The translations under genes were made by a program, and so were the position numbers. DNA of 12,764 nucleotides, taken from the NCBI GenBank assembly GCA_012513125.1, contig JAAZCS010000298.1:1-12764 (forward strand), read 5' to 3'. This DNA comes from Treponema sp. (GTDB taxonomy: Bacteria; Spirochaetota; Spirochaetia; Treponematales; Treponemataceae). The notes under the pieces were generated by a model. That model saw only the letters and a program-made list of their open reading frames with translations. It was not told the origin of the DNA and did not search any database. Of this stretch, positions 1 through 12,764 are shown piece after piece (position 1 is the first letter of the stretch; every line of letters begins with the position of its first letter).

Positions 1-142
1 CAAGGGCTTCTTTTCCAGCAAAATTTCCAACAACAATGCTATCAACAATATTATACATTTGTTGTAAAATATTCCCAATTAATAAAGGTAATGAGAATTT
101 GATAATTAATTTAGCAGGATTTCCTATTGTCATATTAGTCAT
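1..142 (-). CDS. MATE-family efflux transporter, N-terminal fragment
   Basis: Reading the minus strand from the ATG at 142 gives 47 codons that run off the left edge. The protein starts MTNMTIGNPAKLI and continues with FSLPLLIGNILQQMYNIVD and SIVVGNFAGKEAL. This matches the first membrane helix and following loop of MatE (multidrug/Na+ or H+ antiporter) proteins, where FSLPLLIGN, QQ.YN..D and VG.F.G..AL are typical. Such proteins have about 12 membrane helices and 440-460 residues, so roughly 90% lies outside the window. No good Shine-Dalgarno sequence precedes the ATG at 142; an in-frame ATG at 133 is an alternative start. The gene is divergent from the aldo-keto reductase, and its first codons overlap the predicted promoter of that gene. 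The substrate cannot be told. Confidence 0.8.
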   Translation of the reverse strand, partial: MTNMTIGNPAKLIIKFSLPLLIGNILQQMYNIVDSIVVGNFAGKEAL

Positions 143-154
143 GTGTGGTATAGT
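127..154 (+). promoter_or_regulatory. Predicted sigma-70-type promoter of the aldo-keto reductase gene
   Basis: TTGTCA at 127-132 and TATAGT at 149-154 are separated by 16 bp. The start point would be near 161, leaving a leader of about 40 nt that contains the GAGG ribosome binding site at 189-192. It lies across the start of the divergent MATE gene. Motif match only. Confidence 0.4.
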
Positions 155-199
155 ACAGTAAATCTTTTTAAATGAATAGTATTATTGTGAGGTATTAAG

Positions 200-1186
200 A
201 TGTATAAGGCTAATGACAAACGTTATGACAAAATGAAGTATAAACAGTGCGGAAATAGTGGACTCTTATTACCACGAGTTGCCCTTGGTTTATGGCATAA
301 TTTTGGTTCTGTTGATGTTTTTGAAAATATGAAAAAAATGCTGTTTACTGCTTTTGATGAAGGTATTACTCATTTTGATTTAGCAAATAATTATGGCCCC
401 GAGCCTGGTTCTGCAGAAGAAAACTTTGGGCGGATAATGCAGAGTGATTTTCGTTCTTATCGTGATGAGATGATAATTTCTACAAAGGCTGGTTATGGAA
501 TGTGGGCTGGCCCTTATGGAGATGGCGGTAGCAGAAAATATTTATTTGCCAGTTTGAATCAAAGCTTAAAAAGAATGAATTTGGACTATGTTGACATTTT
601 TTATCATCACAGACCTGATCCGAACACTCCACTTGAAGAAACAATGAATGCTCTTTCAGATATTGTAAAGCAAGGAAAAGCTTTATACGTGGGCTTGTCA
701 AATTATGGTTCAGAAGATTTAAAGAAAGCAGCTAAAATTCTAAAGCAAAATGGAACTCCTTTATTAATTAATCAAGTAAGATATAATATGTTAGACAGAC
801 ATATAGAAAATGATAAGCTATTTGACGCTCTTGAAGAAGTTGGTGCTGGAAGTATAGCGTTTTGTCCTTTGGCACAAGGTTTATTAACTGATAAATATTT
901 AAACGGAATTCCAGAAGGAAGTAGGGCAACAAAAAATATTTTTCTTCATAAATCTGATATTACGGAAGAAAAGCTTGTTCAGATTTCAAAGTTGAATGAA
1001 GTTGCAAAAAACAGGAATCAGACTCTTGCAGAAATGTCTTTATGTTGGAATTTACGAAAAGACAGACTAACAACAGTTCTGATTGGTGCAAGTAGAAAAG
1101 AACAAATTCTGGACAATGTCAAAATTATGGAAAAACTTGATTTTACAGAAAATGAACTTAATACAATAGAAGAAATCTTAAAATAG
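200..1186 (+). CDS. Aldo/keto reductase, YghZ/Gpr (L-glyceraldehyde 3-phosphate reductase) type
   Basis: The 328-residue protein has the length and sequence pattern of E. coli YghZ/Gpr, a soluble NADPH-dependent reductase of L-glyceraldehyde 3-phosphate and methylglyoxal-like aldehydes. Family signatures are LGLWHNFG (30-36), THFDLANNYGPEPGSAEENFG (57-77), IISTKAGYGMW (92-102), GGSRKYL (109-115), PLAQGLLT.KYLNGIP (223-238) and VLIGASRKEQI (293-303). The expected catalytic tetrad is D60, Y65, K96 and H137. The GASR segment near the C-terminus matches the cofactor phosphate-binding site. ATG 200 is preceded by GAGG at 189-192 with good spacing; a later in-frame Met (residue 12) would remove a segment conserved in the family. 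The gene converges on the flavodoxin-like gene with a 7-nt gap and has two successive TAG stops. The exact aldehyde substrate is inferred from the family only. Confidence 0.93.
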   Translation: MYKANDKRYDKMKYKQCGNSGLLLPRVALGLWHNFGSVDVFENMKKMLFTAFDEGITHFDLANNYGPEPGSAEENFGRIMQSDFRSYRDEMIISTKAGYGMWAGPYGDGGSRKYLFASLNQSLKRMNLDYVDIFYHHRPDPNTPLEETMNALSDIVKQGKALYVGLSNYGSEDLKKAAKILKQNGTPLLINQVRYNMLDRHIENDKLFDALEEVGAGSIAFCPLAQGLLTDKYLNGIPEGSRATKNIFLHKSDITEEKLVQISKLNEVAKNRNQTLAEMSLCWNLRKDRLTTVLIGASRKEQILDNVKIMEKLDFTENELNTIEEILK

Positions 1187-1200
1187 TAGAGTTCTATTTT
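1180..1200. terminator. Possible weak bidirectional terminator between convergent genes
   Basis: AAAATAG (1180-1186) and CTATTTT (1194-1200) can form a 7-bp stem around a 7-nt loop at the 3' ends of the aldo-keto reductase and flavodoxin-like genes. The stem is almost all A-T, so it would be weak. Confidence 0.3.
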
Positions 1201-2128
1201 TCAATCCTAGTGAATATTTGCTTTGAAAGCTGAGTGCAAATGCTTGTCAGCTTTTCGTGTTTAACATCAAGCTTTTCATCCATTTCATTTGCAAAGTTAA
1301 AGAATTTACCAGGATTGAAATGATTTAGAATGTATTCAACTCTTTTTATTTTTCCTTTGTTTTCGATGCAAAATTGTCTGATTGGACCACATATAGAAAA
1401 TACCCAGATTGGAGTAACAATAATTACTTTTTCTCTTTGCTCAAGATTTGCCTTTTCTGCATAAGGTTTTAGATTCATTCCCCAAGCGTGCATACCAAAA
1501 CGACCGCACCACCAAAATCCAAGTGTGTCCTTTGTCATTTCTGTAGTTTCAAGCTCAAGAATTTCAGAACCAGTTTCATCAGCTTTTTCATAAGCAATTT
1601 TTTTTGTGTAACCCATCCTAGAAAAATAAACGACTAGAGATTTTTTATCTGAACCAATATTCTTGAAATTTGATTTGTAAAATTCATCATTATATTTTTC
1701 TGCAAAAGTTTTTTGACAATAAAAAACAAAACAAACATAACCAGAAATAAATTGTAATAAGCCAAAAATAAAATAAGATTGCGACATGAAATTTTGAGGA
1801 AAAATGACAAATTGAATACAAATCCAAAGCATCAAAGTAATACCAAAAACAAAGCCAAGAATATGACCAATTTTCTTATTTTTCAAAATCAAAACAGCCG
1901 CAATCAAATTGCTTAACCCATTAACAATTAAAAGTGAAATACCAGAAAAGATAAAATTTTGAAAAAGATACTTAGCAAAAGGAAGAACTTGAAAATAAGG
2001 TAACATCCCATTCATTCCAAGAATAGAACCGTCAGGTTTAATAAGCATACAAGAGCTACCAAAAACAGCCCCAATACCAAAAAAAAACACCAAAAAAGAA
2101 TAACAATACGAGAAACTTTATAACGCAT
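1194..2128 (-). CDS. Membrane-anchored flavodoxin-like protein, frame interrupted at a T9 tract
   Basis: The uninterrupted frame covers 1194-2093 (299 codons from a TTG). Three hydrophobic helices (about residues 47-70, 77-99 and 107-127) are followed by a flavodoxin-like domain (about 151-290) that begins KSLVVYFSRMGYTKK, the FMN phosphate-binding loop, and includes VIIVTPIWVFSICGPIRQF near the flavin ring site. The TTG at 2093 has no ribosome binding site. In another frame, an ATG at 2128 has GGAG about 8 nt upstream and a good promoter behind it, and encodes MRYKVSRIVILFWCFF, a natural first membrane helix. The two frames would join if the T run at 2087-2079 had ten bases instead of nine, giving 311 residues. 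This may be a real inactivating or phase-variable slip, or a sequencing error. A flavodoxin-dependent redox role is inferred; the partner is unknown. Confidence 0.7.
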
Positions 2129-2146
2129 AACAATACTCCAGTCCCC

Positions 2147-2175
2147 ATTATAGGAGAAATATAGAGGATAGTAAA
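2147..2175 (-). promoter_or_regulatory. Predicted promoter of the flavodoxin-like gene
   Basis: On the minus strand TTTACT (2175-2170) and a perfect TATAAT (2152-2147) are 17 bp apart. A start near 2140 gives a short leader containing GGAG before ATG 2128. This supports 2128, not 2093, as the true start. Confidence 0.6.
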
Positions 2176-2179
2176 TTAA

Positions 2180-2537
2180 ATTGGAAAGCAAAACAAAGTA
2201 GTTAGACCAATAAACCAGTAAGAAAAGCAAGGTGCTAGACTGGTTTTTATTAATTAGTGCTACACACTAATTAATTCACTTGATGGTGTCACACTCATTG
2301 GTGTGGGCGGAGCCTCAAGAACCCAGTTTACATGTTAGCTAAAGAAACCATAAATTGGATAGCGAAACAAAGAAGTTAGACCAATTTTAATTAATTAGTG
2401 CTATACAATAATTAATTCACTTGATGGTGTAACATTGATATCAAGGGCTTGAGTTTCTGATGCTAACGGTGAAAAAGCTATTATTGTAGAACCCGCATAA
2501 AATGAACAAGTGTTTCATTTTGGTGAATTGTACTTGG
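2180..2537. repeat. Mosaic intergenic repeat element, copy A
   Basis: This non-coding stretch is built from blocks that recur here or in copy B (3489-3711). The 32-bp block at 2180-2211 returns at 2354-2385 with 3 differences (ATTGG at one end, GTTAGACCAAT at the other). The block at 2249-2289 returns at 2390-2430. The block at 2306-2350 (GGCGGAGCC through GTTAGCTAAAGAAACCA) matches 3528-3571. The 33-bp block at 2445-2477, from GGGCTTGAG to GGTGAAAAAG, is identical to 3619-3651. The block at 2501-2537 matches 3675-3711 with 2 differences. GTTAGC/AGAAAC (2334-2349) can pair with GTTTCT/GCTAAC (2452-2467), so the element can fold back on itself. No transposase is present. A non-autonomous mobile or recombining element is an inference. 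Confidence 0.7.
2249..2430. repeat. Duplicated hairpin module inside copy A
   Basis: At 2249-2275 an 11-bp perfect stem (ATTAATTAGTG with CACTAATTAAT) encloses the loop CTACA. The module recurs at 2390-2416 with loop CTATA and one stem mismatch. In both places it is followed by TCACTTGATGGTGT. The stem is A-T rich and has no U-run, so a terminator role is unlikely. Confidence 0.65.
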
Positions 2538-2575
2538 TGAACTGTACTTGGTGAACTGTACTTGGTGAACTGTAC
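2520..2575. repeat. Tandem repeat, four copies of a 14-bp unit
   Basis: Four consecutive units of TTGGTGAACTGTAC lie at 2520-2533 (one base different), 2534-2547, 2548-2561 and 2562-2575, followed by a degenerate partial unit. The array sits at the edge of repeat copy A; copy B has a single related unit (about 3694-3707). It lies about 100 bp upstream of the lipoprotein promoter. The identical inner units suggest recent slippage. It is non-coding, and 14 is not a multiple of 3. Confidence 0.9.
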
Positions 2576-2681
2576 TTTTGGTGAAGAAGTGAACATTTGA
2601 TAAATAAAATTAATCCATACTTTTTTAACAATTTTTTTATTATTTGGTGTAAAACTATGTATAATAAGGAAATACAAGTGC

Positions 2682-2709
2682 TTGACACGGGGGGGGGTAA
2701 TGATAGAAT
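2682..2709 (+). promoter_or_regulatory. Lipoprotein-gene promoter with a G9 tract in its spacer
   Basis: A consensus TTGACA at 2682-2687 and TAGAAT at 2704-2709 are 16 bp apart, and nine of those bases are an unbroken G run (2689-2697) in otherwise AT-rich DNA. Loss or gain of a G by slippage would change the spacing; ten Gs would give the optimal 17 bp. The predicted start is near 2716, upstream of GGGGTGA (2730-2736) and ATG 2741. In T. pallidum, poly-G length changes in tpr promoters are known to alter expression. The same behaviour here is inferred. Confidence 0.7.
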
Positions 2710-2740
2710 AACGAAAAATTATAAATTTCGGGGTGAAATT

Positions 2741-3382
2741 ATGAAAAAAACATTAATCGTTTTATTATCGGTTGTTGCAGGATTATTCTTTTCTTGTAGC
2801 AATTCATCAGACACAAGTACACTTATGACACTTGCTGTAATTCAACAACAACAAGCCGCAGAAGCTGCCGCTGTAAAAGTACCGTCATTATCAGTTGGAG
2901 ATGTATATCTAAATTCTATGACTAGTCAGTATTTTGAAGTCAAAGATTCTACAACAATAAATATTTATTCGTATACAAACAATAGTCTATCGGCACCTTC
3001 TGCTCATTCATATAATGCAGATACAGGAATAATATCTTATAGTGGAAATGTTCTTTGTAAACTTATTCAGAACGATGGTAAACTTTACTCGGGTACTTTT
3101 ATTGCAAAAACAAATGCTAATACAAGCTTCTGTACAACATGGGCAATTACAAGTGATTCAAATACACTTTCTTATACATTTAATACTGATAAAACATGTA
3201 TATATAGTTTAACAGGTTCTCCTGATACAACACTTAAATATGAAGTTTCTCCATATAATAGCAATTTATATACATTGTCATATAATGGAATAGAAATGAA
3301 GGTTTATTATGATGCTAGTTCTGGAATAACAACGTTTATGGATCAGATGAAACTAACAAAAGTATCTGGACTTCCAGCATAA
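2741..3382 (+). CDS. Small secreted lipoprotein of unknown function
   Basis: The 213-residue product starts MKKTLIVLLSVVAGLFFSC, a lipoprotein signal with basic residues, a hydrophobic core and a spirochaete-style lipobox (L-F-F-S before C19). After cleavage C19 would be lipidated. A Ser/Thr/Asn-rich tether (20-30) leads to an Ala/Gln-rich stretch (32-45), then a Tyr/Ser/Thr-rich, probably beta-strand domain (48-213) with repeated short segments such as GDVYLNS, YNADTGIISYSG and YDASSGITTF. I do not recognise the family. ATG 2741 is chosen because GGGGTGA lies just upstream and the signal peptide begins there; the frame stays open back to an ATG at 2597, but that would place the promoter and its G tract inside the gene. 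The stop is doubled (TAA TAG). Two copies of a repeat element flank the gene, so it may be a variable or exchangeable surface antigen (inference). Confidence 0.85.
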   Translation: MKKTLIVLLSVVAGLFFSCSNSSDTSTLMTLAVIQQQQAAEAAAVKVPSLSVGDVYLNSMTSQYFEVKDSTTINIYSYTNNSLSAPSAHSYNADTGIISYSGNVLCKLIQNDGKLYSGTFIAKTNANTSFCTTWAITSDSNTLSYTFNTDKTCIYSLTGSPDTTLKYEVSPYNSNLYTLSYNGIEMKVYYDASSGITTFMDQMKLTKVSGLPA

Positions 3383-3410
3383 TAGATTTCTAGATAAACA
3401 AGAAATTCAA

Positions 3411-3453
3411 AAACCGTCAGTGAAGAAAAACTTTGCTGACGTTTTTTATTTTT
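3411..3453. terminator. Rho-independent terminator, probably bidirectional
   Basis: CGTCAG (3415-3420) pairs with CTGACG (3436-3441). The stem extends inward through TGAAG/CTTTG with two wobble pairs around an A5 loop, and T6 follows at 3442-3447. On the other strand the same stem is followed by GTTTTTG, so it can also end the asnB-ykgJ transcript after that passes through repeat copy B. Confidence 0.85.
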
Positions 3454-3488
3454 AAATAAACACAGTAAATTGCACCGTAAAGTTGAAG

Positions 3489-3711
3489 TCTAGCCCAATA
3501 AACCAAAAGGACACACTTGTAGGTGAAGGCGGAGCCAGAAAACTCAGTTCCACAGTTAGCTAAAGAAACCAAGATCCAAAAGTTGCATTGTTAGCAAAGC
3601 TAACACCAGCAACTTTCTGGGCTTGAGTTTCTGATGCTAACGGTGAAAAAGTGAAAATTTCAGTATCCGCTAACAATGACCAAGTGTTTCATTTTGGTGA
3701 ATTATACTTGG
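3489..3711. repeat. Mosaic intergenic repeat element, copy B, a long foldback
   Basis: It shares three blocks with copy A in the same order and orientation (3528-3571, 3619-3651 and 3675-3711). The whole copy is an imperfect palindrome. The 17-bp arm at 3503-3519 (CCAAAAGGACACACTTG) is complementary to 3681-3697 at 15 of 17 positions. CCCAA (3493-3497) can pair with TTGGG (3708-3712) outside it, and a second large hairpin (3555-3641) sits inside. The element fills the gap between the lipoprotein terminator and the stop codon of the Cys-cluster protein, ending about 10 nt from that stop. No coding potential is seen. Confidence 0.7.
3555..3641. repeat. 87-nt compound hairpin at the core of repeat copy B
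   Basis: Nested paired segments from outside inward are GTTAGC (3555-3560) with GCTAAC (3636-3641), AGAAACCAAG (3564-3573) with CTTG-A-GTTTCT (3622-3632, one bulged A), CCA with TGG, AAAGTTGC (3579-3586) with GCAACTTT (3609-3616), and TGTTAGC (3589-3595) with GCTAACA (3599-3605) around the loop AAA. That is about 34 base pairs. The outer stem is conserved in copy A but the inner hairpin is replaced there by a different insert. Confidence 0.7.
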
Positions 3712-3721
3712 GTGATGTTTC

Positions 3722-4372
3722 TTAATTACTATCCGCCAACGTCATTATCCACATCAATTTTGCTATAGTTTTTGGCAATATATCTCTTATCAAAAATGTT
3801 TTTGTTGAAGTAAAAGAAAAAGATTCTTCCATTAAATCACTCATCAATGGTGGTGTTGTACCAAACAAATCAATAACTTCATCTTTTGAATATTGCTTGT
3901 GAGAAATTGGTGGATTATGTTCAGATAATTTTTCTACAGGATAGAACTTACAAGGTTTCCAGACAAGACAACCTTTTTTATCTTTAAATCCGCTAGCTCC
4001 AAAAAGCCTACAGATAACAGCTCTTCCATTGTATATGGAACAATGGTAATCACTATTTGGATTAAAAAGAAGGCAGGCACTTCCATTGTCAAAAGGAAAG
4101 CTGCCATCTTTAATCTGCATAGCCACATCATTTTGATTTTCAATCAACCATGCAGCCATGTACAAAGCTTCACATTCAAGTAAATCAGGTTCAAAATGTC
4201 TGCAACAGTTTCCGCATCCAGAAGGACACGAAAACTTTGAGATTTCATACCATTTTGATTGCTCTTTTGATATTCTGTCATACATTTTTTCAGTCTTAAC
4301 AAGAATATCATATTCATTAGTTCCTTTAATTTTTGATAGAACATTCTTTATATTAGAATCAATCTCTGTCAT
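3722..4372 (-). CDS. Cysteine-cluster protein, YkgJ/UPF0153 (metal or Fe-S binding) family
   Basis: The 216-residue protein carries the CxxxCxxCC signature of this family at C49, C53, C56 and C57, followed by C67, C100, C111, C121, C135 and C141. The segments SACLLFNPN, HCSIYNGRAVICRLFG and CLVWKPCKFYP give the usual second half of the motif. Family members are thought to chelate zinc or iron or hold an Fe-S cluster; their reaction is not established. No signal peptide or membrane helix is visible, so it is probably cytoplasmic. The ATG lies 9 nt after the asnB stop codon with only a poor ribosome binding site between, so it is almost certainly cotranscribed and perhaps translationally coupled with asnB. 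Whether it acts on AsnB or asparagine metabolism is unknown. Confidence 0.85.
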   Translation of the reverse strand: MTEIDSNIKNVLSKIKGTNEYDILVKTEKMYDRISKEQSKWYEISKFSCPSGCGNCCRHFEPDLLECEALYMAAWLIENQNDVAMQIKDGSFPFDNGSACLLFNPNSDYHCSIYNGRAVICRLFGASGFKDKKGCLVWKPCKFYPVEKLSEHNPPISHKQYSKDEVIDLFGTTPPLMSDLMEESFSFTSTKTFLIRDILPKTIAKLMWIMTLADSN

Positions 4373-4381
4373 TTTAGAACT

Positions 4382-5980
4382 CTATTTTCCTGAATCACCA
4401 TAATTGCTCAAAACTCTGGCAGAAGGATCGTTTACGTTACAGCCTTCCCAAGATTTATTTGGCATCCAGAAGTCAGTAACCATTTCTGCTTGTCCTGGAT
4501 AATATTTTTCAAAAATCTCACGATATAAAAGTGATTCTTTTGTAAAAGGTTTTGCATGAGAATATTTTTTGCAACCTTCTTCAAATTCTTTATCAGAATA
4601 TGTTGAAGCGGCAAATTCTTTTAAGTCATCAACAAGAGAATGTCCTACAGCATCACTGAAAGCTGCTTTTTCTCTCATAAGAATGTCATAAGGAAGATAA
4701 GGAGAGCCATCTTCTGCTTTTTCAAAAGCGTGACGAAGAAGATATTTTCCTTTGTTGTATTTATTCATTTTGATTTCAGGATTAATTCCCATAACATATT
4801 TTACAAAATCCAAATCGCCAAACGGAACACGTGCTTCAATTGAGTTTACACTTATGCATCTATCTGCACGCAAAACATCATACATATGAAGTTCATGGAT
4901 TCTTTTTTCTGCTTCTTTCTGGAATTCTTCAGCATTTGGAGCAAAGTCTGTGTATTTATATCCGAACAATTCATCACTGATTTCACCAGTCAAAAGAACG
5001 CGGATGTTGCTTTGTTCATGAATTGCCTTGCAAATTAAATACATTCCCATACTTGCACGAATTGTTGTGATGTCGTAAGTTCCCAAAGCATGAATAACGT
5101 CTTCCAAAGAACCAAGGACATCTTCTTTTGTGATAATTATTTCATGATGGTTTGAACCGATGTATTCAGCAACTTCTTTTGCATATTTCAAGTCGATGGC
5201 ATCAGTTTTCATACCAATTGCAAAAGTCTCAATCGGTTTTTTTAGAATTTTTGCAGAAACAGCACACACTAACGAAGAATCAAGACCTCCCGAAAGTAGA
5301 AATCCTAATGGTGCGTCAGCATCAAGTCGTTTTTCAATTCCTTTTACCAATTTATCATGAATTTTTTTGCAAGTTGTCTCTAAATCATCAGAACTGTAAG
5401 TTTGTCTTTCTGTAACGTTGTTAAAACAGATGAATTCACCATCTTTATAATAATATCCAGGAGGAAATGGAAGAATCTTTTCTACAATGCCGACTAAGTT
5501 TTTAGGTTCGCTTGCAAAAACAGGTTTTGTGTCGCCTTTTGCATAACCGTAATACAATGGTCTGATTCCAATTGGATCACGAGCTGCAATCAATTGTTCC
5601 GATTTTGCATCGTAAATAATCAAAGCGAATTCTGCATCAAGAGTTTTGAACATCTCAACACCAAATTCTTTATACAATGGAAGTAGAAGTTCACAATCAG
5701 ATTGACTTTTAAAAGTATAACCTTTATTAATCAAATCTTCTTTAAGTTTTCTAAAACCATATATTTCGCCATTGCAAACAACTGCATTATTTTCAAAAGT
5801 AAAAGGTTGCATTCCCTCTTTTTGTAGTCCCATAATTGCAAGGCGATGAAATCCCAAAAATCCTTTTCCTATGTTCAGAATTCTTGAATCATCTGGACCA
5901 CGAGTCTTAGTTCTCTCAAAACAATCCTTTAATCTTTCTAAGGATATACAATCTCCTAAATAACCCATAATTGAACACAT
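4382..5980 (-). CDS. asnB: Asparagine synthetase, glutamine-hydrolysing (AsnB type)
   Basis: At 532 residues this is close to E. coli AsnB (554). It converts aspartate, glutamine and ATP to asparagine. The N-terminal class II amidotransferase domain begins MCSIMGYLG, where Cys2 becomes the catalytic N-terminal nucleophile after Met removal; HRLAIMG (45-51) and CNGEIYG (69-75) are glutaminase motifs. The synthetase domain has the PP-loop SGGLDSS (230-236), LTGEISDELFGYKY (330-343) and SIEARVPFGD (380-389). GAGGTG at 5992-5987 is well spaced before ATG 5980. A dedicated promoter and an attenuator-like leader lie immediately upstream, separated from amtB by a terminator, so expression is likely tuned to nitrogen status by premature termination. 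The Cys-cluster gene follows 9 nt downstream. Confidence 0.96.
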   Translation of the reverse strand: MCSIMGYLGDCISLERLKDCFERTKTRGPDDSRILNIGKGFLGFHRLAIMGLQKEGMQPFTFENNAVVCNGEIYGFRKLKEDLINKGYTFKSQSDCELLLPLYKEFGVEMFKTLDAEFALIIYDAKSEQLIAARDPIGIRPLYYGYAKGDTKPVFASEPKNLVGIVEKILPFPPGYYYKDGEFICFNNVTERQTYSSDDLETTCKKIHDKLVKGIEKRLDADAPLGFLLSGGLDSSLVCAVSAKILKKPIETFAIGMKTDAIDLKYAKEVAEYIGSNHHEIIITKEDVLGSLEDVIHALGTYDITTIRASMGMYLICKAIHEQSNIRVLLTGEISDELFGYKYTDFAPNAEEFQKEAEKRIHELHMYDVLRADRCISVNSIEARVPFGDLDFVKYVMGINPEIKMNKYNKGKYLLRHAFEKAEDGSPYLPYDILMREKAAFSDAVGHSLVDDLKEFAASTYSDKEFEEGCKKYSHAKPFTKESLLYREIFEKYYPGQAEMVTDFWMPNKSWEGCNVNDPSARVLSNYGDSGK

Positions 5981-6011
5981 ATATCACACCTCTATAAAAT
6001 TCAAGTTAAAG

Positions 6012-6076
6012 AAAAAAAGACGTCGTAGACAGATTCCCATATTTCTATAGAAATTTATCTACGACGTCTTTGCCGT
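6012..6076 (-). promoter_or_regulatory. asnB leader: attenuator with alternative hexaloop hairpin
   Basis: Read on the minus strand, the predicted mRNA starts near 6076. The first 16 nt can form a 5-bp hairpin, ACGGC/GTCGT, with the six-base loop AAAGAC (6071-6066; A at position 1, G at position 4). Its loop and 3' side are also part of a perfect 14-bp stem, 6071-6058 with 6029-6016, closed by a 28-nt loop and followed by seven U (6018-6012), which is a Rho-independent terminator. The two folds exclude each other. The loop itself contains the palindrome ATTTCTATAGAAAT. The arrangement matches the amtB leader at 8081-8140. The A1/G4 hexaloop resembles the RNA hairpins bound by ANTAR-domain antiterminators; only one such loop is seen here, so that link is an inference. 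Confidence 0.75.
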
Positions 6077-6083
6077 ACAATAT

Positions 6084-6112
6084 CTTATACATTTTTTAAC
6101 GAAAAAAGTCAA
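6084..6112 (-). promoter_or_regulatory. asnB promoter
   Basis: TTGACT (6112-6107) and TATAAG (6089-6084) are separated by exactly 17 bp on the minus strand, with TG immediately before the -10 box. The predicted start at about 6076 coincides with the first base of the leader hairpin. Confidence 0.75.
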
Positions 6113-6147
6113 TTCCAACGGATTTAAGGCTTTATTCATCAGCTACT

Positions 6148-6189
6148 AAAAAAAAATCTTACGACCGAAATAAATCGGCCGTAAGATTT
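6148..6189 (-). terminator. amtB Rho-independent terminator
   Basis: AAATCTTACG (6154-6163) pairs with CGTAAGATTT (6180-6189). One mismatch is followed by CCGA/TCGG and a 6-nt loop. On the minus strand the stem is followed by nine T (6156-6148). It lies about 40 nt after the amtB stop and separates amtB from asnB. Confidence 0.88.
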
Positions 6190-6231
6190 AAGATTTATCT
6201 TTTCTTCAAGGAAAAATCAAATTAACTTTGA

Positions 6232-7968
6232 TTATTCTTCATCTTGAAGTGCATTAAAGCCTTCTTCACCAGTTCTAACTTTGATTACATTTTCAACATC
6301 GTAAACGAAAATCTTTCCGTCTCCAATATGTCCTGTATACAAAGCTTTTTTTGCAGTATCAATAACAGTTTGTAATGGAACCTTTGCAATAATAATTTCA
6401 ACTTTAATTTTTGGAAGTAAAGTCATGCTGATTGGAGCACCACGATAAAGTTCTGTAGAACCTTTTTGCATACCGCAACCCATAACATTCTGCACAGTCA
6501 TTCCTGTAATTCCAATTTTGTCCATTGCATTTTTTAGTACATCAAACTTAGTTTGACGAGTAACTATTACAACTTTTGTAAGCTTGTTTCCGTCAGAAGA
6601 TTTTGTTGAAACATCAACTGTAGGAATTGCCTTTTCAACAGGAGCAGAAGCCATTTTTAGACCAGCATCTTTAGCTTCTTCAACTTCTGCAGGACTATAG
6701 TTGATTGTAAAGTCAGCATAGCTTGATTCAATTCCATGTTCATATTTATCAAGACCGAATATTTCTTCTTCTGGAGCAGCACGTAATCCGTTAACTTTCT
6801 TGATGATAAGGAATGTGATTGTAATTGTAACACCTGTCCATAAAAGAATTGCTAAAACTCCAAGCAATTGAACTCCAAGCTGATGAAATCCGTGTCCATA
6901 GAATAGACCAGAATCTACGCTGAAAAGTCCAGCTGCAATTGTTCCCCAAATACCATTAGCAAAGTGAACGCCAACAGCACCAACTGGATCATCAATATGA
7001 AGTTTAAGGTCAAGACCTTCAACAACTACAACAACCAAAATACCAGCAACAGCACCGATAATAATAGCTCCTAAAGCATCAGTACAAGCACAAGGTGCAG
7101 TAATAGCAACAAGACCAGCCAAAGAAGCGTTTAATGACATTGAAACATCAGGTTTTCCATTTTTTACCCATGTAAATATCATTGTTACACAAGTAGCTAC
7201 AGCAGGTGCCAAAGTTGTTGTTAAGAATACAGATGCAAGACCACCAACGCCATTCATTTGTGTACAAGCTGCACCGTTGAATCCATACCATCCAAACCAA
7301 AGAATGAATGTACCAAGTGCACCTAAAGTTAATGAGTGTCCAGGAATTGCATGAACTTGAGTTACTTTTCCTTTGCTATCGCGACTGTATTTTCCAAGTC
7401 TAGGACCTAATATTGCAGCACCGATTAATGCACAGAATCCGCCAACCATATGAATCGCAGCAGAACCTGCAAAATCAATAAAACCAAGCTGACATAACCA
7501 ACCATTAGCATTCCATACCCATCCAGCTTCAATTGGATAGATGATAGCACTTATAACACCAGAATAAATACAATATGCACTGAATTTAGTTCTTTCTGCC
7601 ATGGCACCACTTACAATAGTTGCTGCTGTAGCACAGAAAACCAAGTTGAATACAAAGCTAGACCATGGGAAGTTAGCATAGTTTGTGAAAAGCTGTAAAT
7701 CAGGTTTACCAATAATTCCAAAGAAATAATTTTCACTCATCATAAGAGCGAAACCGATAATTGCGAACATAGGTGTTCCAATACAGAAATCCATCAAGTT
7801 TTTCATGATGATATTTCCAGCGTTCTTTGCACGTGTAAATCCTGTTTCGACCATTGCGAAACCACACTGCATGAAGAATACAAGAGCTGCACCAATTAAA
7901 AACCAAATTCCGTACAACTCGCCTGTAGCAGAACTTACTGCTGCATCGATAATAGATTGTGCTTCCAT
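6232..7968 (-). CDS. amtB: Ammonium transporter fused to a C-terminal PII (GlnK-like) domain
   Basis: The 578-residue protein combines an inner-membrane Amt/Rh channel (about 1-400, normally 11 helices) with a PII signal protein (about 464-570). Channel signatures include FVFNLVFCATAATIVSGAMAER (106-126), GSAAIHMVGG (168-177) and GVHFANGIWGT (333-343), which contain the pore twin histidines H173 and H335; D165 corresponds to the conserved Asp at the pore entrance. In the PII part, VMGCGMQKGSTELYRG (495-510) is the T-loop base, LLPKIKVEII (517-526) a core strand, and TGHIGDGKIFV (545-555) with KVRTGEEG (563-570) the nucleotide site. The usual uridylylated Tyr51 of RGAEYMVD is absent (RGAPISMT). 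ATG 7968 has a perfect AAGGAGG. The protein likely imports ammonium and gates itself through nucleotide/2-oxoglutarate binding. It has its own attenuated promoter and terminator. Confidence 0.95.
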   Translation of the reverse strand: MEAQSIIDAAVSSATGELYGIWFLIGAALVFFMQCGFAMVETGFTRAKNAGNIIMKNLMDFCIGTPMFAIIGFALMMSENYFFGIIGKPDLQLFTNYANFPWSSFVFNLVFCATAATIVSGAMAERTKFSAYCIYSGVISAIIYPIEAGWVWNANGWLCQLGFIDFAGSAAIHMVGGFCALIGAAILGPRLGKYSRDSKGKVTQVHAIPGHSLTLGALGTFILWFGWYGFNGAACTQMNGVGGLASVFLTTTLAPAVATCVTMIFTWVKNGKPDVSMSLNASLAGLVAITAPCACTDALGAIIIGAVAGILVVVVVEGLDLKLHIDDPVGAVGVHFANGIWGTIAAGLFSVDSGLFYGHGFHQLGVQLLGVLAILLWTGVTITITFLIIKKVNGLRAAPEEEIFGLDKYEHGIESSYADFTINYSPAEVEEAKDAGLKMASAPVEKAIPTVDVSTKSSDGNKLTKVVIVTRQTKFDVLKNAMDKIGITGMTVQNVMGCGMQKGSTELYRGAPISMTLLPKIKVEIIIAKVPLQTVIDTAKKALYTGHIGDGKIFVYDVENVIKVRTGEEGFNALQDEE

Positions 7969-7973
7969 TTTTT

Positions 7974-7980
7974 CCTCCTT
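7974..7980 (-). promoter_or_regulatory. amtB ribosome binding site
   Basis: AAGGAGG (7980-7974) matches the full Shine-Dalgarno consensus with a 5-nt spacer to ATG 7968. It is the strongest ribosome binding site in the window. Confidence 0.9.
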
Positions 7981-8004
7981 GGAAAATTAAACCCTCTAAA
8001 ATAC

Positions 8005-8062
8005 AAAAAAGGCGTCGAAATTGAAAAACTGCATAAAAACAGTTTATTAATTTCGACGCCTT
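8005..8062 (-). terminator. amtB leader, second (promoter-distal) terminator/attenuator
   Basis: On the minus strand a perfect 14-bp stem, 8062-8049 with 8022-8009, encloses a 26-nt loop that can form its own 6-bp hairpin (AAACTG/CAGTTT). Six T follow (8010-8005), about 25 nt before the amtB Shine-Dalgarno. It sits in the 5' untranslated region, so it is an attenuator rather than an end-of-gene terminator. No A1/G4 hexaloop was found in front of it; the nearest alternative fold is GACG/CGTC with loop AAGG. Confidence 0.75.
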
Positions 8063-8080
8063 CGTCTTTTATTGAAAGTT

Positions 8081-8140
8081 AAAAAAAAGAAGCCGTAGAA
8101 CTATTCTTAAAAAAGATTAAATCTACGGCTTCTTTACCGT
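8081..8140 (-). promoter_or_regulatory. amtB leader, first attenuator with alternative hexaloop hairpin
   Basis: The predicted transcript begins near 8140. Its first 16 nt can form ACGGU/GCCGU with loop AAAGAA (8135-8130; A at position 1, G at position 4). This competes with a perfect 14-bp stem, 8135-8122 with 8099-8086, followed by eight U (8088-8081). Layout and sequence match the asnB leader at 6012-6076. Where the two differ, both folds keep their pairing: G-C here for G-U there in the small hairpin, and the terminator arms change together. This supports RNA-level function. Confidence 0.78.
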
Positions 8141-8147
8141 TATTTGC

Positions 8148-8177
8148 ATAATAATAAATTTTGAATGATTCTGTCAA
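8148..8177 (-). promoter_or_regulatory. amtB promoter
   Basis: TTGACA (8177-8172) and TATTAT (8153-8148) are 18 bp apart on the minus strand. The first base of the leader hairpin, 8140, lies 8 nt past the -10 box, the same distance as in the asnB leader. Confidence 0.7.
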
Positions 8178-8209
8178 GATAAAAATTAAATAAAATGAAA
8201 ATACTTTTC

Positions 8210-8238
8210 TTTACAAGATATTAACCTTGTGTTATAGT
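8210..8238 (+). promoter_or_regulatory. rrf2-mnmA promoter, possibly producing a leaderless mRNA
   Basis: TTTACA (8210-8215) and TATAGT (8233-8238) are 17 bp apart. The ATG of the Rrf2 gene begins 7 nt after the -10 box, where transcription would be expected to start, so the mRNA may have almost no leader. Confidence 0.55.
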
Positions 8239-8244
8239 AGGTTT

Positions 8245-8658
8245 ATGATAGTTTCAACAAGAGGACGTTACGCATTAAGAGTTCTTATAGATTTAGCAGA
8301 ACAAGATTCTTCTTCGTTTGTTCCATTACGTGATATTGCTAACCGTCAAAATATTTCACAAAAGTATATTGAATCGATAATGACTATGCTGTCAAAAAAT
8401 GGATTGATAATTGGTGTACACGGAAAGGGCGGTGGTTATAAATTAATAAAATCTCCCTCAGAGTATAAAGTGAGTGAAATACTGAAAATAACGGAAGGCT
8501 CCTTGGCACCTGTTGCATGCTTGGAATGTGGGGCTACTCCTTGTGCAAGAATTGATAATTGTCGAACAATTGACATGTGGAAAGAGCTTGATAATCGTGT
8601 ATCTGGTTATCTTTCAAGTATTACGATTCATGATTTGATGAAAAAAAATCAGAATTAA
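8245..8658 (+). CDS. Rrf2-family transcriptional regulator (IscR-like cysteine cluster)
   Basis: From ATG 8245 the protein has 137 residues and begins MIVSTRGRYALRVLIDLA, the standard Rrf2 N-terminus. A winged-helix DNA-binding domain occupies about 1-70: LRDIANRQNISQKYIESIM is the helix-turn-helix and GKGGGYKL the wing. C92, C95, C100 and C106 lie in CLECGATPCARIDNC, the region where IscR/NsrR relatives bind an Fe-S cluster (C-x7-C-x5-C plus one extra Cys). It likely senses Fe-S, cysteine or redox state. The frame extends to a TTG at 8227, but that falls inside the promoter and adds nothing conserved. mnmA follows 35 nt downstream on the same strand; in many bacteria an Rrf2 gene precedes cysteine desulfurase and mnmA, but no desulfurase is present here. 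Divergent amtB shares the intergenic region, with no evident shared operator. Confidence 0.92.
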   Translation: MIVSTRGRYALRVLIDLAEQDSSSFVPLRDIANRQNISQKYIESIMTMLSKNGLIIGVHGKGGGYKLIKSPSEYKVSEILKITEGSLAPVACLECGATPCARIDNCRTIDMWKELDNRVSGYLSSITIHDLMKKNQN

Positions 8659-8693
8659 ACAAAATTTTACGATACAAACATAAATAGGAAAAA

Positions 8694-9866
8694 ATGAATT
8701 ATATTAATCAAGAAATGCCCAAAAAAGGCGATACAGTTGTTGTTGGTATGTCAGGTGGCGTTGATTCAACTTTAGTAGCTTTTACGCTTAAACAGAAAGG
8801 GTGCAAAGTAATCGGTGTAACAATGTCTTTATGGGATGGCTCGCTACCAGAAGTGAAATCTGATAAACCTTTGAAAGAATCATGTTTTGGACCTGGTGAA
8901 GAAAAAAATATTGCTGAATGTGAAAAATTCTGTGCTGAAAATGGAATTGAATATCATGTTATCGATGTAAAAGAAACATACAAAAAAGAAGTTCTAGAAT
9001 ATTTTAAAAGTGAATATAGGCATGGAAGAACTCCAAATCCATGTATACGTTGCAATATGATGGTGAAATTCGGGGCTTTGTTAAAGGGTGTCCAAGATTT
9101 AGGTATAAATTATGATTATTTTTGTACAGGACATTATGCAAGAGTAGTACGCCCAGAAGAAGGTTTATATAAAAGCGAAAATCGCCCATTCATGATTGCT
9201 GGTGCAACTGATATTTCAAAAGATCAAACTTATTTTTTATATAGAGTTCCTTCTGCCGTTTTAGAAAAGGTTAGATTTCCTTTGGCAATGATGAAAAAAA
9301 CTGAGGTCTTTGAATTGGCACGAAATGCAAATTTAGAAGCTGCACAGCGTTCAGAAAGTCAGGATTTTATTGGCGAAGAATATTTTGATTTAATTTTTTC
9401 TGATGTTCCTTCAAAACCAGGCGACATTATTGATTTAGATGGTCATGTTCTTGGGAAACACCGAGGAATTGAGCATTATACAATTGGTCAAAGACGTGGT
9501 CTTGGCGTTGCTGTTAATTATCCAGTTTATGTTCATTCAATTGATGTAAAAAATAATTTAGTAGTTTTAGCTCCAAACGATGCTCTGAACTCAAGTGGTT
9601 TGGTAGCTGATGATTTTGTTTGGGCTGGAAACATTGAACCAAATGAAGAAATAGAAGCTATGGTAAAAATAAGATTAGCGAGCAAACCTGTATCTTGTAA
9701 AATAAGCGAATATAAAACAAAAGAAGGCGAGTCGTTCAATGGAAAGCCTTGGAAAATTATTTTTTCGGAACCACAAAGAGCTGTTGCACCAGGTCAATCT
9801 GCTGTTTTATATAAAGATGGCGTAATTTTGGGTGGCGGAATAATCAGTCAAGTTATGCAATTGTAA
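8694..9866 (+). CDS. mnmA: tRNA-specific 2-thiouridylase MnmA, CxxC variant lacking the second catalytic Cys
   Basis: The 390-residue enzyme makes 2-thiouridine at position 34 of Lys, Glu and Gln tRNAs. The PP-loop is SGGVDS (20-25). GRTPNPCIRCNMMVKFG (111-127) holds the catalytic-Cys region, with C117 and C120 replacing the E. coli D-x-x-C. GHYARV (146-151), KDQTYFLYRV (176-185) and YTIGQRRGLGV (262-272) are family signatures, and the C-terminal beta-barrel runs from about 280. Where E. coli has the second cysteine (C199, within GICFIG) this protein reads ESQDFIGEEY, with no Cys. C64 (SCFGPGEE) is a possible third ligand alongside the CxxC, consistent with an Fe-S-dependent version of the enzyme; the mechanism is inferred. 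AGGAA lies 4 nt before the ATG. It is probably cotranscribed with rrf2. It converges on the helicase gene with a 3-nt gap and no obvious terminator. Confidence 0.93.
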   Translation: MNYINQEMPKKGDTVVVGMSGGVDSTLVAFTLKQKGCKVIGVTMSLWDGSLPEVKSDKPLKESCFGPGEEKNIAECEKFCAENGIEYHVIDVKETYKKEVLEYFKSEYRHGRTPNPCIRCNMMVKFGALLKGVQDLGINYDYFCTGHYARVVRPEEGLYKSENRPFMIAGATDISKDQTYFLYRVPSAVLEKVRFPLAMMKKTEVFELARNANLEAAQRSESQDFIGEEYFDLIFSDVPSKPGDIIDLDGHVLGKHRGIEHYTIGQRRGLGVAVNYPVYVHSIDVKNNLVVLAPNDALNSSGLVADDFVWAGNIEPNEEIEAMVKIRLASKPVSCKISEYKTKEGESFNGKPWKIIFSEPQRAVAPGQSAVLYKDGVILGGGIISQVMQL

Positions 9867-9869
9867 TTT

Positions 9870-12017
9870 TTATAGCAAAGTGATTGGGGCAGAAAAACCC
9901 AGCCGTCTAGGGGTAGGAAGAGATTCAAATTTTATTAAATAAGTGAATTTTATTTCATCAATTTCTAGAATTATGCCTTTTCCAAAAATTTTATGCGAAA
10001 TATTATTGCCTATTTTGAAAGTGTTCATAATTGAAAATCTGTTTGTTTTTTCAATTGAAAGCTGAATCTGATGTTTTGCCTCTTCTTCAAGCTTTTCGGG
10101 TAATTCTTTTGCATAATCTAAAAGGTCTTTTTCTACATCAAAAATAAATCTAGACGGATATCTATATCCAAATCCATTTTCAGAACCTTCAGCGTCAGTT
10201 AAAAATAATTCGTTTTCAGCACGAGTGAATGCCACAAACGCAAGCCGTCGCTCCTCTTCCATTTCAGCAGGAGTGGAAATCTTTTTACTCGGAAATAAAT
10301 TCTCATTCATACCACATATAAAAACGACGGGAAATTCCAGCCCTTTTGCAGTATGAATAGTCATCATTTTAATTGCTTGCTTTACAGTTCCCGCGTCGCT
10401 GTTTGTGAATAAGGCTGTGTGAGCCAAATAGTCATCAAGAGACGCTTCTTCACCGCATGAGGCTTCATATTCAAAAATAGATTGCTTTAATTCCGCAAGA
10501 TTATCTAGTCGGTCTTGAGCCCCTTCTGTTCGTAATTCCCTTTCGTAACCACTTTCATTCATTACAAAGCTGAATAATTCTGAAATTTTCATGTTTTGAT
10601 AGGATGACGCATATTTTTCTATAAATTGAATGAAATCTTTTGCCTTAGTATTTGTAAAAATCTCTTCATCAATTGAATCTTTTAGGCATTCATATAAAGA
10701 TTTATTTCTTTCATTCGACATTTCTTTTAGGAATTTAATTCTTTTGTTTCCGAGATTTCGTTTTGGTGTGTTGCAAATTCGTAAAAATGATAAATCGTCC
10801 TTGTAAGCAATCATTCGTAAAAAAGAAAGTGAATCTTTTATTTCCTTACGATCAAAAAATGGAAGTCCTGAAAAAAGTGTATATGGAATTTTTTTTGTGA
10901 TGAATTCTTCTTCTATTGTTCTGGATAAAAAATGTGACCTGTATAAAATTGTGATGTCAGAATGATGATAACCTTTTTGTAAAAGTTCGTTTATTTTGTC
11001 TGAAATAAATTCAGCTTCTTCTTTTGTAGTTTTTGCATGATAAAAAGTGGGTTTTGAGATGGATTCTTTTGTAGAAATTAGATTTTTTGGTATTCGTATT
11101 GAATTTTTAGCGATAAGTGAGTTTGACGCGTGAATAATTTCTGGAGAAGAGCGGTAATTCGTATTCATCATTATTGTTTTTACATTGTCAAACTTTTTGT
11201 CAAAGTTTAAAAGAAATCGAACATCAGCTCCTCGCCATGTATAAATAGTTTGATCTGGGTCTCCAACAATAAAAAGATTTTTATGATAGTCACATAAAGT
11301 TTCCAAAAGTTCATATTGTAGTGAATCAATATCCTGAAATTCATCGACCATTATGTATTCAAGCTGTTTTTGCCATTTTAAGCAAATCTCTTTGTCTGAT
11401 TTAAAAATATACAGTGTGAATTTGATTAAATCGTTGTAGTCCAAGCCAAAGCACTTTTTTTCTTGATAGAGATAACCATAAAAAATGATGTCATCTGTTT
11501 TTGTGGCGTTTTTATATTTTAAATAGATTTCGTCCAAAGTCATTCGTAATATATCAAGATAATATTCTGGATATTGAAAAAGCTTTTTCATTTCAATCAT
11601 GTCTCTTGCATTTGAGAATGTCATTTGTCTTAATGATAAATTTCGCTCTTCGTAAATAATTGAAAGCATTGTATCAATGTCAGAATTGTCTAGTACAAGA
11701 AAATTTTTGGGATATTGAATGGAGTTGCTATCTTCTTTTAAAACCGAAACACAAAATCCGTGAAATGTTGAAATAAATCCAGTGTCATTATCACCTGTTA
11801 TTAGTCTGATTCTTGAACGCATTTCGTTTGCAGATTTATTTGTAAATGTGACACAAAGAATGTTTGAAGGGAGAATTCCTATTTCTGTTACTAAAAAAGC
11901 AAATCTATTAACTAAAGCTTTTGTTTTTCCAGAACCAGCTCCAGCAACGACTCTAAAAAAACCTTCTGTGCTTGTGACCGCTTCTTTTTGTTCCTCATTT
12001 AATTCAGATAAATCCAT
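9870..12017 (-). CDS. UvrD/PcrA-type ATP-dependent 3'-5' DNA helicase
   Basis: At 715 residues this matches the PcrA/UvrD length of about 720. All superfamily 1A motifs are intact: Q-motif LNEEQKEAV (6-14), Walker A AGAGSGKT (25-32), Ia CVTFTNKSANEM (55-66), Walker B DEFQD (225-229), III GDPDQTIYTWRG (252-263), IV NYRS (287-290), V TIHTAKGLEFP (553-563) and VI RRLAFVAFTRAE (590-601). The end, NISHKIFGKGIILEID (672-687), is the small C-terminal domain that in PcrA contacts RNA polymerase. Such helicases unwind DNA in nucleotide-excision and mismatch repair and clear replication-transcription conflicts. PcrA and UvrD cannot be separated with certainty, so no symbol is given. The ATG at 12017 lacks a Shine-Dalgarno but lies 7 nt from a -10-like box. 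It is downstream of the glutamine synthetase terminator and transcribed alone. Confidence 0.95.
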   Translation of the reverse strand: MDLSELNEEQKEAVTSTEGFFRVVAGAGSGKTKALVNRFAFLVTEIGILPSNILCVTFTNKSANEMRSRIRLITGDNDTGFISTFHGFCVSVLKEDSNSIQYPKNFLVLDNSDIDTMLSIIYEERNLSLRQMTFSNARDMIEMKKLFQYPEYYLDILRMTLDEIYLKYKNATKTDDIIFYGYLYQEKKCFGLDYNDLIKFTLYIFKSDKEICLKWQKQLEYIMVDEFQDIDSLQYELLETLCDYHKNLFIVGDPDQTIYTWRGADVRFLLNFDKKFDNVKTIMMNTNYRSSPEIIHASNSLIAKNSIRIPKNLISTKESISKPTFYHAKTTKEEAEFISDKINELLQKGYHHSDITILYRSHFLSRTIEEEFITKKIPYTLFSGLPFFDRKEIKDSLSFLRMIAYKDDLSFLRICNTPKRNLGNKRIKFLKEMSNERNKSLYECLKDSIDEEIFTNTKAKDFIQFIEKYASSYQNMKISELFSFVMNESGYERELRTEGAQDRLDNLAELKQSIFEYEASCGEEASLDDYLAHTALFTNSDAGTVKQAIKMMTIHTAKGLEFPVVFICGMNENLFPSKKISTPAEMEEERRLAFVAFTRAENELFLTDAEGSENGFGYRYPSRFIFDVEKDLLDYAKELPEKLEEEAKHQIQLSIEKTNRFSIMNTFKIGNNISHKIFGKGIILEIDEIKFTYLIKFESLPTPRRLGFSAPITLL

Positions 12018-12023
12018 TCATTA

Positions 12024-12142: not shown

Positions 12143-12764
12143 TTATTTAACACTGAACAATAAATCGCCGTAACTTGGATATGGCCAGTATGATTTATCT
12201 GTGCAGCTTTCAAGTTCATCAACAGAAATACGAAGTTCAGTCATTGCAGCAAAAATATTTTCGCGTGTAAATAAAGCCAATTTTGAAATATCATCAGTTA
12301 TTTCTTTTGCTTTTAGAACAGCTTTTTCTAGTTTTTCAACTTTTCTATAGATTGAACTTGTTAATGTAGACACTTTTACAAGAAGTTCTTGTTCATAAGA
12401 TACATCTGCCATTTCATATGCTGCTTTTTTCGCCGTGATTGTTTCTGCCAATGCACGACCAAATTTACTAGCTGAAGGAAGAATATCTTTTTTTGCCATG
12501 TCTAGCATAGTCATTGCTTCAATATTGATTATTTTAATATAGTTGTCATTTTGAATTTCAAATCTTGAATTCGCCTCAACTTTAGAGAAAACGCCGTGTT
12601 TTTCAAATAAGTCGATATTCTTTTTATCAATAAGATGAATTAGAGCTTCTGGAGTTGCACCTGGATCGAGCAAGTTTTTTCCTGTATTTGTAGAAATTGA
12701 CCAGTTGTTATGTTTTCCACTTCCGTTGACGCCTGCAAAAGGTTTTTCATGAAGAAGGCATACC
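12143..12764 (-). CDS. glnN: Glutamine synthetase type III (GlnN), C-terminal fragment
   Basis: The frame is open to the right edge, giving the last 206 residues of a protein that is normally about 700 long. The first visible residues, [22 protein letters not shown], followed by [16 protein letters not shown], are the GSIII catalytic-domain segment; [10 protein letters not shown] corresponds to the ATP/glutamate-binding N-G-S-G-x-H motif shared by all glutamine synthetases. The remainder ([19 protein letters not shown], then a helical region and [19 protein letters not shown]) is the C-terminal helical domain specific to GSIII and its WPYP ending. The enzyme makes glutamine from glutamate, ammonia and ATP and forms dodecamers. 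Its start and promoter lie outside the window, so it cannot be tested for the leader found at asnB and amtB. The internal TTG at 12673 is not a real start. Confidence 0.95.

Follow-up and report, generated by a model that had tools for sequence, protein, structure and literature searches.

Single-hexaloop terminator leaders of asnB and amtB in Treponema: probable targets of ANTAR-mediated antitermination

In the leaders of asnB and amtB on a Treponema sp. contig, a promoter is followed by a small hairpin and an intrinsic terminator that share sequence, which raises the question of what decides between the two folds. The window, that is, the whole stretch of DNA analysed here, covers 12,764 nt (GCA_012513125.1, contig JAAZCS010000298.1, positions 1–12,764, forward strand), and its features are collected in Table 1. 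Residues of about 465–571 of AmtB match P-II models, with scores under the whole-protein cut-offs of those models; since this P-II (GlnK-like) domain forms the C-terminus, the ammonium transporter and a nitrogen sensor appear to be joined in one chain. A divergent gene for an Rrf2-family regulator (8239–8658, +; Pfam Rrf2) begins at a likely ATG approximately 70 nt from the amtB -35 box. The glnN gene is cut by the contig end, and its leader is therefore invisible in this assembly.

Table 1. Genes and leader elements of the window, with the basis of each assignment
Feature	Position	Strand	Basis
asnB, asparagine synthase B, predicted regulated gene	4382..5980	-	NCBIfam NF006949, 616 bits vs cut-off 499
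asnB intrinsic terminator + T-tract, arms 6071-6056 / 6031-6016	6012..6071	-	folding, covariation
asnB antiterminator hairpin ACGGC-AAAGAC-GTCGT, hexaloop 6071-6066, predicted ANTAR site	6061..6076	-	folding, covariation
asnB -10 box TATAAG, 17-bp spacer, 7 nt ahead of hairpin	6084..6089	-	read from sequence
asnB -35 box TTGACT	6107..6112	-	read from sequence
amtB, ammonium transporter fused to P-II domain	6232..7968	-	TIGR00836, 402 bits vs cut-off 343
amtB unit 2 terminator + T-tract	8001..8063	-	stable fold, z -6.5
amtB unit 2 antiterminator hairpin GAC-GAAGGC-GTC, hexaloop 8063-8058, G at position 1	8055..8066	-	resembles other units with G at position 1
amtB unit 1 terminator + T-tract	8079..8135	-	folding; R1 E 1.1e-6 (training row)
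amtB unit 1 antiterminator hairpin ACGGT-AAAGAA-GCCGT, hexaloop 8135-8130	8125..8140	-	folding
amtB -10 box TATTAT, 18-bp spacer, 7 nt ahead of hairpin	8148..8153	-	read from sequence
amtB -35 box TTGACA	8172..8177	-	read from sequence
glnN fragment, glutamine synthetase C-terminal part	12143..12763	-	Gln-synt_C-ter domain, as in type III enzymes

The sequence confirmed the reading of the initial annotation that asnB and amtB each have a strong promoter followed by a hairpin whose 5-bp stem closes a six-base loop; both promoters are of consensus type. When each upstream region was compared with 200 mononucleotide-shuffled versions of itself, the promoter score had p = 0.010 for asnB and p = 0.005 for amtB. 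The 16-nt hairpin folded alone gave -4.2 kcal/mol in asnB, where the small stem can be extended to 6 bp, and -5.0 kcal/mol in amtB unit 1. The whole leaders folded as terminators, with minimum free energies of -32.4 kcal/mol (z -8.6) for asnB and -25.9 kcal/mol (z -6.8) for amtB unit 1, and in each case none of 200 shuffles was equally stable. Position 1 is A and position 4 is G in both loops, and folding of both leaders agreed with the earlier statement that the hairpin's loop and 3' side double as the 5' arm of a strong terminator. Since the two structures use this same strand, they are mutually exclusive, and according to the folding energies the terminator is predicted to prevail over the weak hairpin unless the latter is helped. 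The base swaps given for the two hairpins (G-U to G-C and C-G to U-G) were also correct.

The earlier description of the asnB leader and of amtB unit 1 was right, but it overlooked a second hairpin/terminator unit in the amtB leader (8069–8001, -), the loop of which has G at both positions 1 and 4. This unit was not a training row of R1, a covariance model built from the amtB and asnB leaders only, and it scored E 4.0e-7, between amtB unit 1 and the asnB unit (E 2.3e-9, a row of the R1 training set). The 2.27 Mb assembly (406 contigs, 80.6% complete) contains two mismatch-free copies of the 20-base element at the start of the leaders, both inside the window. Copies with three mismatches (L005, L006) were rejected as chance, there being four matches in total versus seven in the reversed control; by eye, they lie among ORFs apparently unrelated to nitrogen. 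An Rfam search of the window at a loose threshold gave eight hits, all of them under their gathering score.

The initial annotation had raised the possibility of an ANTAR-domain gene in the same genome, and two were found over the Pfam cut-off (PF03861, 53.0 and 50.7 bits vs the curated 27.3). The first (contig C30) follows pyrG and glnA in a pyrG-glnA-ANTAR operon, ahead of which we observed another unit with a promoter (ttgact-17-tataat), a hairpin (TGAGC-GAAGGT-GTTCA), a terminator and a T-tract. R1 missed this unit, and R2, a model trained on Spirochaetes only, gave E 3.1e-5, its training having included the unit; the operon of the predicted regulator would therefore carry the switch itself. 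A unit with the hairpin GAC-AAGGGC-GTT (R2 E 6.3e-6) stands ahead of a second ammonium transporter gene (C282). The second ANTAR gene (C7; L008 3410–4009, -) lies directly after glmS, the latter read by eye. A weaker unit, ATGC-AAAGGC-GCAT (C52:7163–7227, +; L175; R2 E 0.004), is located about 260 nt ahead of a gene that by eye resembles a Na+/H+ antiporter and may be an additional target.

To place the leaders in the genus we used 98 genomes, with relatives of amtB in 89, of asnB in 93 and of ANTAR in 87, and the 30 best-scoring loci per search were fetched; the genome of the window was among the 30 for both amtB and asnB. Most of the 30 asnB loci encode an asnB-type enzyme about 40% identical to that of the window, one of which was named by Pfam Asn_synthase. 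At E 0.05, R2 detected units in 25 of the 30 amtB leaders (16 with one, 9 with two) and in 25 of the 30 asnB leaders, one each, most of the matching rows having also belonged to the training set of the model. Ten of the 60 leaders (five amtB, five asnB) had no R2 match at this threshold, which counts against the ANTAR reading; two of these ten hold units by eye (L021, L014) and two by script, in shifted form (L026, L037). The stems vary between relatives, with ACGGC/GTCGT, AGAC/GTCT, CAAGC/GCTTG, GCAGAC/GTCTGC, GTAAC/GTTAC and AAAC/GTTT among them.

An initial scan that accepted any A..G hairpin loop yielded numerous chance hits within genes; it was replaced by a stricter scan and by a terminator-first scan, in which terminators upstream of amtB and asnB were collected blind to the small hairpin. 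The results showed that 60 of 83 such terminators start with the loop motif R-A-N-G-R, compared with 67 of 210 elsewhere in the loci. The flanking stem paired in 71% of cells in those 60 (31–46% when slid) and in 46% of cells in the 67 (31–41% when slid). Six-base-loop hairpins of at least 4 bp were present at 38 of the 83 upstream terminators; 25 of these 38 read R-A-N-G-R, 24 of them with a closing C-G pair, versus 7 of the 52 such hairpins elsewhere, some of which are units of neighbouring genes. An asnB hit (L039 -228, CTT-GAAGAA-AAG) that overlaps the terminator between amtB and asnB was dropped as chance.

From the 59 distinct rows of the terminator-first scan, 38 units were chosen by eye for alignment A1, in which the hairpin was 82.1% paired with a covariation of 0.46 (slid: 29.5–49.5% and 0.07–0.15) and the terminator 94.9% paired with a covariation of 0.72 (slid: 45–60% and 0.11–0.16). 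The 21 rows not taken comprised mis-phased ones, near-duplicates and a few with good pairing (e.g., L052, L034:1372, L033:3224), as well as at least four that lack a hairpin (L017:3468, L020:3544, L056:1079, L058:1193). Because the A1 rows were hand-picked, their pairing is somewhat flattered, and the terminator-first figure is the fairer one. In A3, an alignment of 60 units from several genera, the hairpin was 85.7% paired with a covariation of 0.62. Loop position 1 was A in 51 rows and G in 9, the latter counting against the ANTAR reading, position 2 was A in 60/60, and the closing pair was C-G in 59/60; the A3 rows were partly chosen with the hairpin, the loop and G4 in view, and loop conservation in A3, and in the Clostridial alignment A5 described below, comes in part from this selection. 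The last units of three amtB leaders (L018, L030, L035) have the form GGC-GATGAT-GTC, with G at loop position 1; as the terminator begins three bases earlier in this form, the 5' arm of the hairpin is there also part of the terminator arm. One such row (L024:3307–3362) was kept in A1 and excluded from A3. Two points of the initial annotation, its call to look for conservation of the small hairpin in relatives and its statement that differences between the leaders preserve both folds, were thus borne out by pairing and covariation, the former in the amtB and asnB leaders as well as in the Clostridial loci below.

A search of Treponema genomes with a covariance model, as had been envisaged, found units across the genus. 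At E 0.1, R1 matched in 93 of the 98 genomes, and the model matches at this threshold amounted to 482, opposite-strand echoes counted in. The 29 new R1 loci (L112–L140) comprised 12 asnB-type genes, 6 gltB, 2 gltD, 2 pyrG, 2 purF, 2 glnN, 1 dapF and 2 without assignment. NCBIfam or Pfam supplied the name for one representative each of gltB, gltD, pyrG, purF, glnN and dapF, the gltB representative being a truncated piece under the whole-protein cut-off, and the others were matched by their N-termini. Stretches from two well-assembled relatives added carA, a carB half and glnA as targets. Units ahead of glnN, anticipated earlier, were thus seen in relatives of the window genome. Judged by their sequences, the predicted targets are enzymes making or spending glutamine, together with ammonium transport, and from the identity of these genes we infer a glutamine/ammonium regulon. 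Tandem units recurred: genome G015 has two ahead of glnN and two ahead of amtB by script (three at amtB by eye, L030), and G076 and G003 have two ahead of gltB by script; such units each lie inside their own terminator, 45–114 nt apart. The dapF gene stands divergent from carA, and each side of this pair has its own hexaloop-terminator unit (L142 2361, -, and 2473, +; L147; L168), which would place two switches back to back. In genome G268, a unit located directly ahead of the ANTAR gene (L162 9013, -) suggests, as far as the sequence goes, ANTAR autoregulation.

The distribution of the units was then set against that of ANTAR genes. Among 194 genomes of the order, 38 had both, 4 a unit only, 7 ANTAR only and 145 neither (Fisher p 1e-28); all four unit-only matches were at E 1e-4 or worse, and one of the seven ANTAR-only matches was under the family cut-off. 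Among 294 genomes of the phylum, searched with R2, the corresponding counts were 44, 3, 12 and 235 (p 1.5e-37). These p values are overstated because the species are related, and the co-occurrence may partly be shared gene loss, since genomes without units and ANTAR often have no amtB either. Eight genomes with units belong to other families of the class and took no part in training; all eight have ANTAR. In stretches from five of these eight and from G402 and G439, which are further ANTAR-bearing genomes of the class, units stand ahead of pyrG, glnA, asnB-type, glnN and GATase_2 amidotransferase genes (Pfam confirmed one case each of glnA, asnB-type, glnN and GATase_2). The script also found units in stretches of the 'ANTAR only' genomes G172, G209, G268, G200, G179, G402 and G439; the stretches covered for G211 and G134 yielded none. 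In the genus sample, two genomes have ANTAR and no units (G046, G086). Counting against the ANTAR reading, 8 of the 11 genomes of that sample without an ANTAR match still have R1 matches at E 0.1, with four to six matches each in G038, G042, G066, G072 and G075 (65–92% complete) and one or two in G007, G013 and G033.

The glnA-linked ANTAR protein of the window genome was modelled with AlphaFold2 (pLDDT 90.3), and the model consists of a receiver-like domain, a long helix and an ANTAR bundle. Its best Foldseek matches were Rv1626, RNA-bound EutV (TM 0.78) and AmiR (0.67); the predicted structure thus has the receiver or pseudo-receiver, coiled coil and ANTAR fold of EutV and AmiR, the receiver domain scoring under the Pfam cut-off. 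In 23 aligned Treponema ANTAR sequences, the positions of EutV K149, E160 and M172 are invariant as K, E and M (with an offset of two in our numbering). Two replacements count against the ANTAR reading: EutV Tyr164, which stacks on G4, is His in 23/23, as in AmiR, and EutV Arg168 is Glu in 23/23. The position of the phospho-acceptor aspartate is nearly invariant in the 23 sequences and missing in the second ANTAR of the genome, and by eye the usual receiver lysine is absent from many of them. Since the aspartate or the lysine is missing in some ANTARs, control by a partner, as in AmiR, appears as likely as phosphorylation. The second ANTAR protein (L008) is diverged as a whole, and most ANTAR-matching genomes of the genus have just one such gene. 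Because the pairing of glnA and ANTAR is near-constant, with glnA beside ANTAR in 29 of the 30 best-scoring genus loci and in 46 of the 49 loci outside the Spirochaetes (of the best 80, see below), one may speculate that glutamine synthetase is a candidate ANTAR partner.

Named genomes were scanned with the ANTAR alignment. Of the best 80 loci, 31 carried a Treponema or Spirochaetes label, and the remaining 49, at 35–42% identity, are by title Clostridia and relatives plus one Coriobacteriales; glnA was also present in 31/31 of the Spirochaete loci. In Clostridium, glnA is linked to the gene of the ANTAR protein NitR; a glnA-ANTAR gene pair is likewise present in most of the non-Spirochaete loci. 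The Spirochaete-trained R2 matched units at Clostridial glnA-linked ANTAR loci with E down to 6.3e-7 (L263), and a script with separate criteria found at least one unit in 29 of the 49. Among the genes that follow these script units are glnA, glnN, gltB, asnB-type and GATase_2 genes, for each of which Pfam named one example, and others; a few script hits in these loci fall inside genes and are chance. In alignment A5, composed of 41 R2 matches from the Clostridial loci, the hairpin was 97.6% paired with a covariation of 0.67, versus 0.04–0.17 when slid; four opposite-strand echoes and one near-duplicate (L270) had been left out, and one row (L249:6070–6119) is possibly on the wrong strand, both strands having scored alike. 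Loop positions 2 and 4 were A and G in 41/41, both of which R2 itself favours. In 35 of the 41 units, the upstream promoter outscores 95% of mononucleotide shuffles; 11 of these 35 read exactly TTGACA-17-TATAAT, and the promoters end 6–16 nt from the stem base.

The units can be compared with known ANTAR systems as these are described in the articles cited here. EutV/eutP, NasR/nasF and AmiR/amiE (Ramesh 2012, PMC3369931) resemble them in that hexaloop positions 1 and 4 are conserved, the loop and 3' side are part of the terminator, the genome encodes an ANTAR protein and nitrogen genes follow. The antiterminators of those systems have two hexaloops, P1 and then P2, and P2 is common to the terminator (PMC3369931); the linker between the hairpins is 2–25 nt (PMC8164766), and deletion of P1 or a change of the linker impairs induction (PMC3369931, PMC8934654). 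The units described here differ from this dual-hexaloop form by (i) the absence of P1 and linker, a single hexaloop standing at the predicted 5' end of the transcript, (ii) tandem copies with their own terminators, and (iii) a purine, as opposed to a strict A, at position 1. Measured by the dual-hexaloop description (Ramesh 2012), the window units show the A1/G4 loop (G1 in amtB unit 2) and the overlap with the terminator, and the second hairpin is absent. The Desulfotomaculum acetoxidans ANTAR regulon likewise has many ANTAR leaders over nitrogen-metabolism operons but was found with a dual-hairpin model (Ramesh 2012).

Published binding data point both ways. EutV induction requires both hairpins (PMC8934654) and the affinity of NasR is about tenfold weaker for one hairpin (PMC7496416), which counts against an ANTAR reading of single-hairpin units, whereas EutV binds either isolated hairpin about equally (PMC8934654) and SELEX with NasR selected a terminal C:G pair, A1 and G4 (PMC7496416), which counts in favour. 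Walshe 2022 (PMC8934654) redefined the minimal ANTAR site as one hexaloop, with three closing base pairs contacted, and the window units and their relatives agree with it in having a hexaloop with G4 on a stem. According to the same article, single sites are to be expected in settings not limited by polymerase timing, antitermination needing both hairpins; here, unlike that expectation, single sites occur in a time-limited antitermination setting. Among the literature matches listed, none linked ANTAR to Treponema or spirochaetes, and those returned were unrelated papers.

The possibility exists that these are ordinary dual-hexaloop ANTAR leaders in which P1 was overlooked, as the published antiterminators (PMC3369931) and the tandem units in the amtB and some glnN and gltB leaders might suggest. 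P1-like hairpins 2–25 nt upstream were, however, found in 5 of 60 units against 3.7 expected, and in 2 of 41 Clostridial units against 3.4 expected, in a shuffle-based test run without a positive control. The space in question holds a predicted -10 box at a narrow distance, 6–13 nt ahead of the hexaloop hairpin in 37 of 46 genus leaders, and because of this spacing the place of P1 appears to be taken by the promoter; the upstream region is a better promoter than 95% of shuffles in 35 of the 46 genus leaders, as it is in most of the Clostridial ones. Moreover, the 25 matching asnB leaders carry one unit each by the model, and tandem units each sit within their own terminator at the distances given above. 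We therefore consider an overlooked P1 very unlikely, and the view that a single hexaloop at the 5' end differs from the two-hairpin motif, put forward in the initial annotation, holds with P1-like hairpins at chance level and a promoter in their place.

It is also conceivable that another RNA-binding protein, or a ligand sensed directly, acts on the leaders and that ANTAR merely co-occurs as a member of the nitrogen gene set, for which the eight genus genomes with units and no ANTAR match and the co-loss with amtB speak. Against this, the units agree with ANTAR sites in loop positions, closing pair and mutually exclusive terminator, and such units stand ahead of the ANTAR operon in the window genome and directly ahead of the ANTAR gene in G268. 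Moreover, a hairpin of 16 nt leaves very little room for a ligand pocket, and none of the Rfam families reached its gathering score in six unit-bearing loci; we regard this explanation as improbable. Plain promoter-proximal terminators, or DNA operators of a repressor with the small hairpin as a by-product, would account for the strong terminators and for inverted repeats at the predicted start site. Yet the 5' arm of the hairpin, which in most units is outside the terminator, still covaries with the shared strand, the loop stays constant while the stems change, as an operator would not require, and six-base loops are enriched at the upstream terminators (38/83 vs 52/210 elsewhere), which makes such an origin barely credible. 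From sequence comparison it is very probable that an ANTAR protein causes antitermination in these leaders by way of one hexaloop at the predicted 5' end of the transcript.

Under ANTAR-mediated antitermination, polymerase would by default start at or next to the base of the hairpin, the stronger terminator would displace the weak hairpin, and transcription would stop after about 60–70 nt. The single hexaloop would be bound as it emerges by an ANTAR protein in its active state, most likely the product of the glnA-linked gene, which would recognise a purine at position 1, A at position 2, G at position 4 and the closing C-G pair. With the small hairpin held by ANTAR, the 5' arm of the terminator would be unavailable, and asnB or amtB would be read through, presumably under nitrogen limitation. 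Series of two or three units, as at amtB and, in relatives, at glnN and gltB, should tighten the shut-off, and the ANTAR operon would itself be a target of the switch.

A broader interpretation can be offered tentatively, and we consider it possible rather than probable: a P1-less class with one hexaloop at the 5' end of the transcript may be the standard form for glnA-linked ANTARs in Spirochaetes and gut Clostridia, the need for two hairpins being a property of the EutV type. Placement at the 5' end may then replace P1, for example if polymerase leaving the promoter gives time for binding, and glutamine synthetase might be the nitrogen sensor that holds or frees ANTAR, as AmiC does for AmiR.

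Walshe 2022 (PMC8934654) calls for further work and bioinformatic analysis of single-hexaloop motifs, and natural single-hexaloop leaders bear on this question. Two-hairpin searches are not expected to find such units, and the single-site question becomes directly testable with the many leaders that combine a strong promoter with one hexaloop and one terminator. For gut Treponema, the ANTAR protein is proposed as a candidate global nitrogen regulator.
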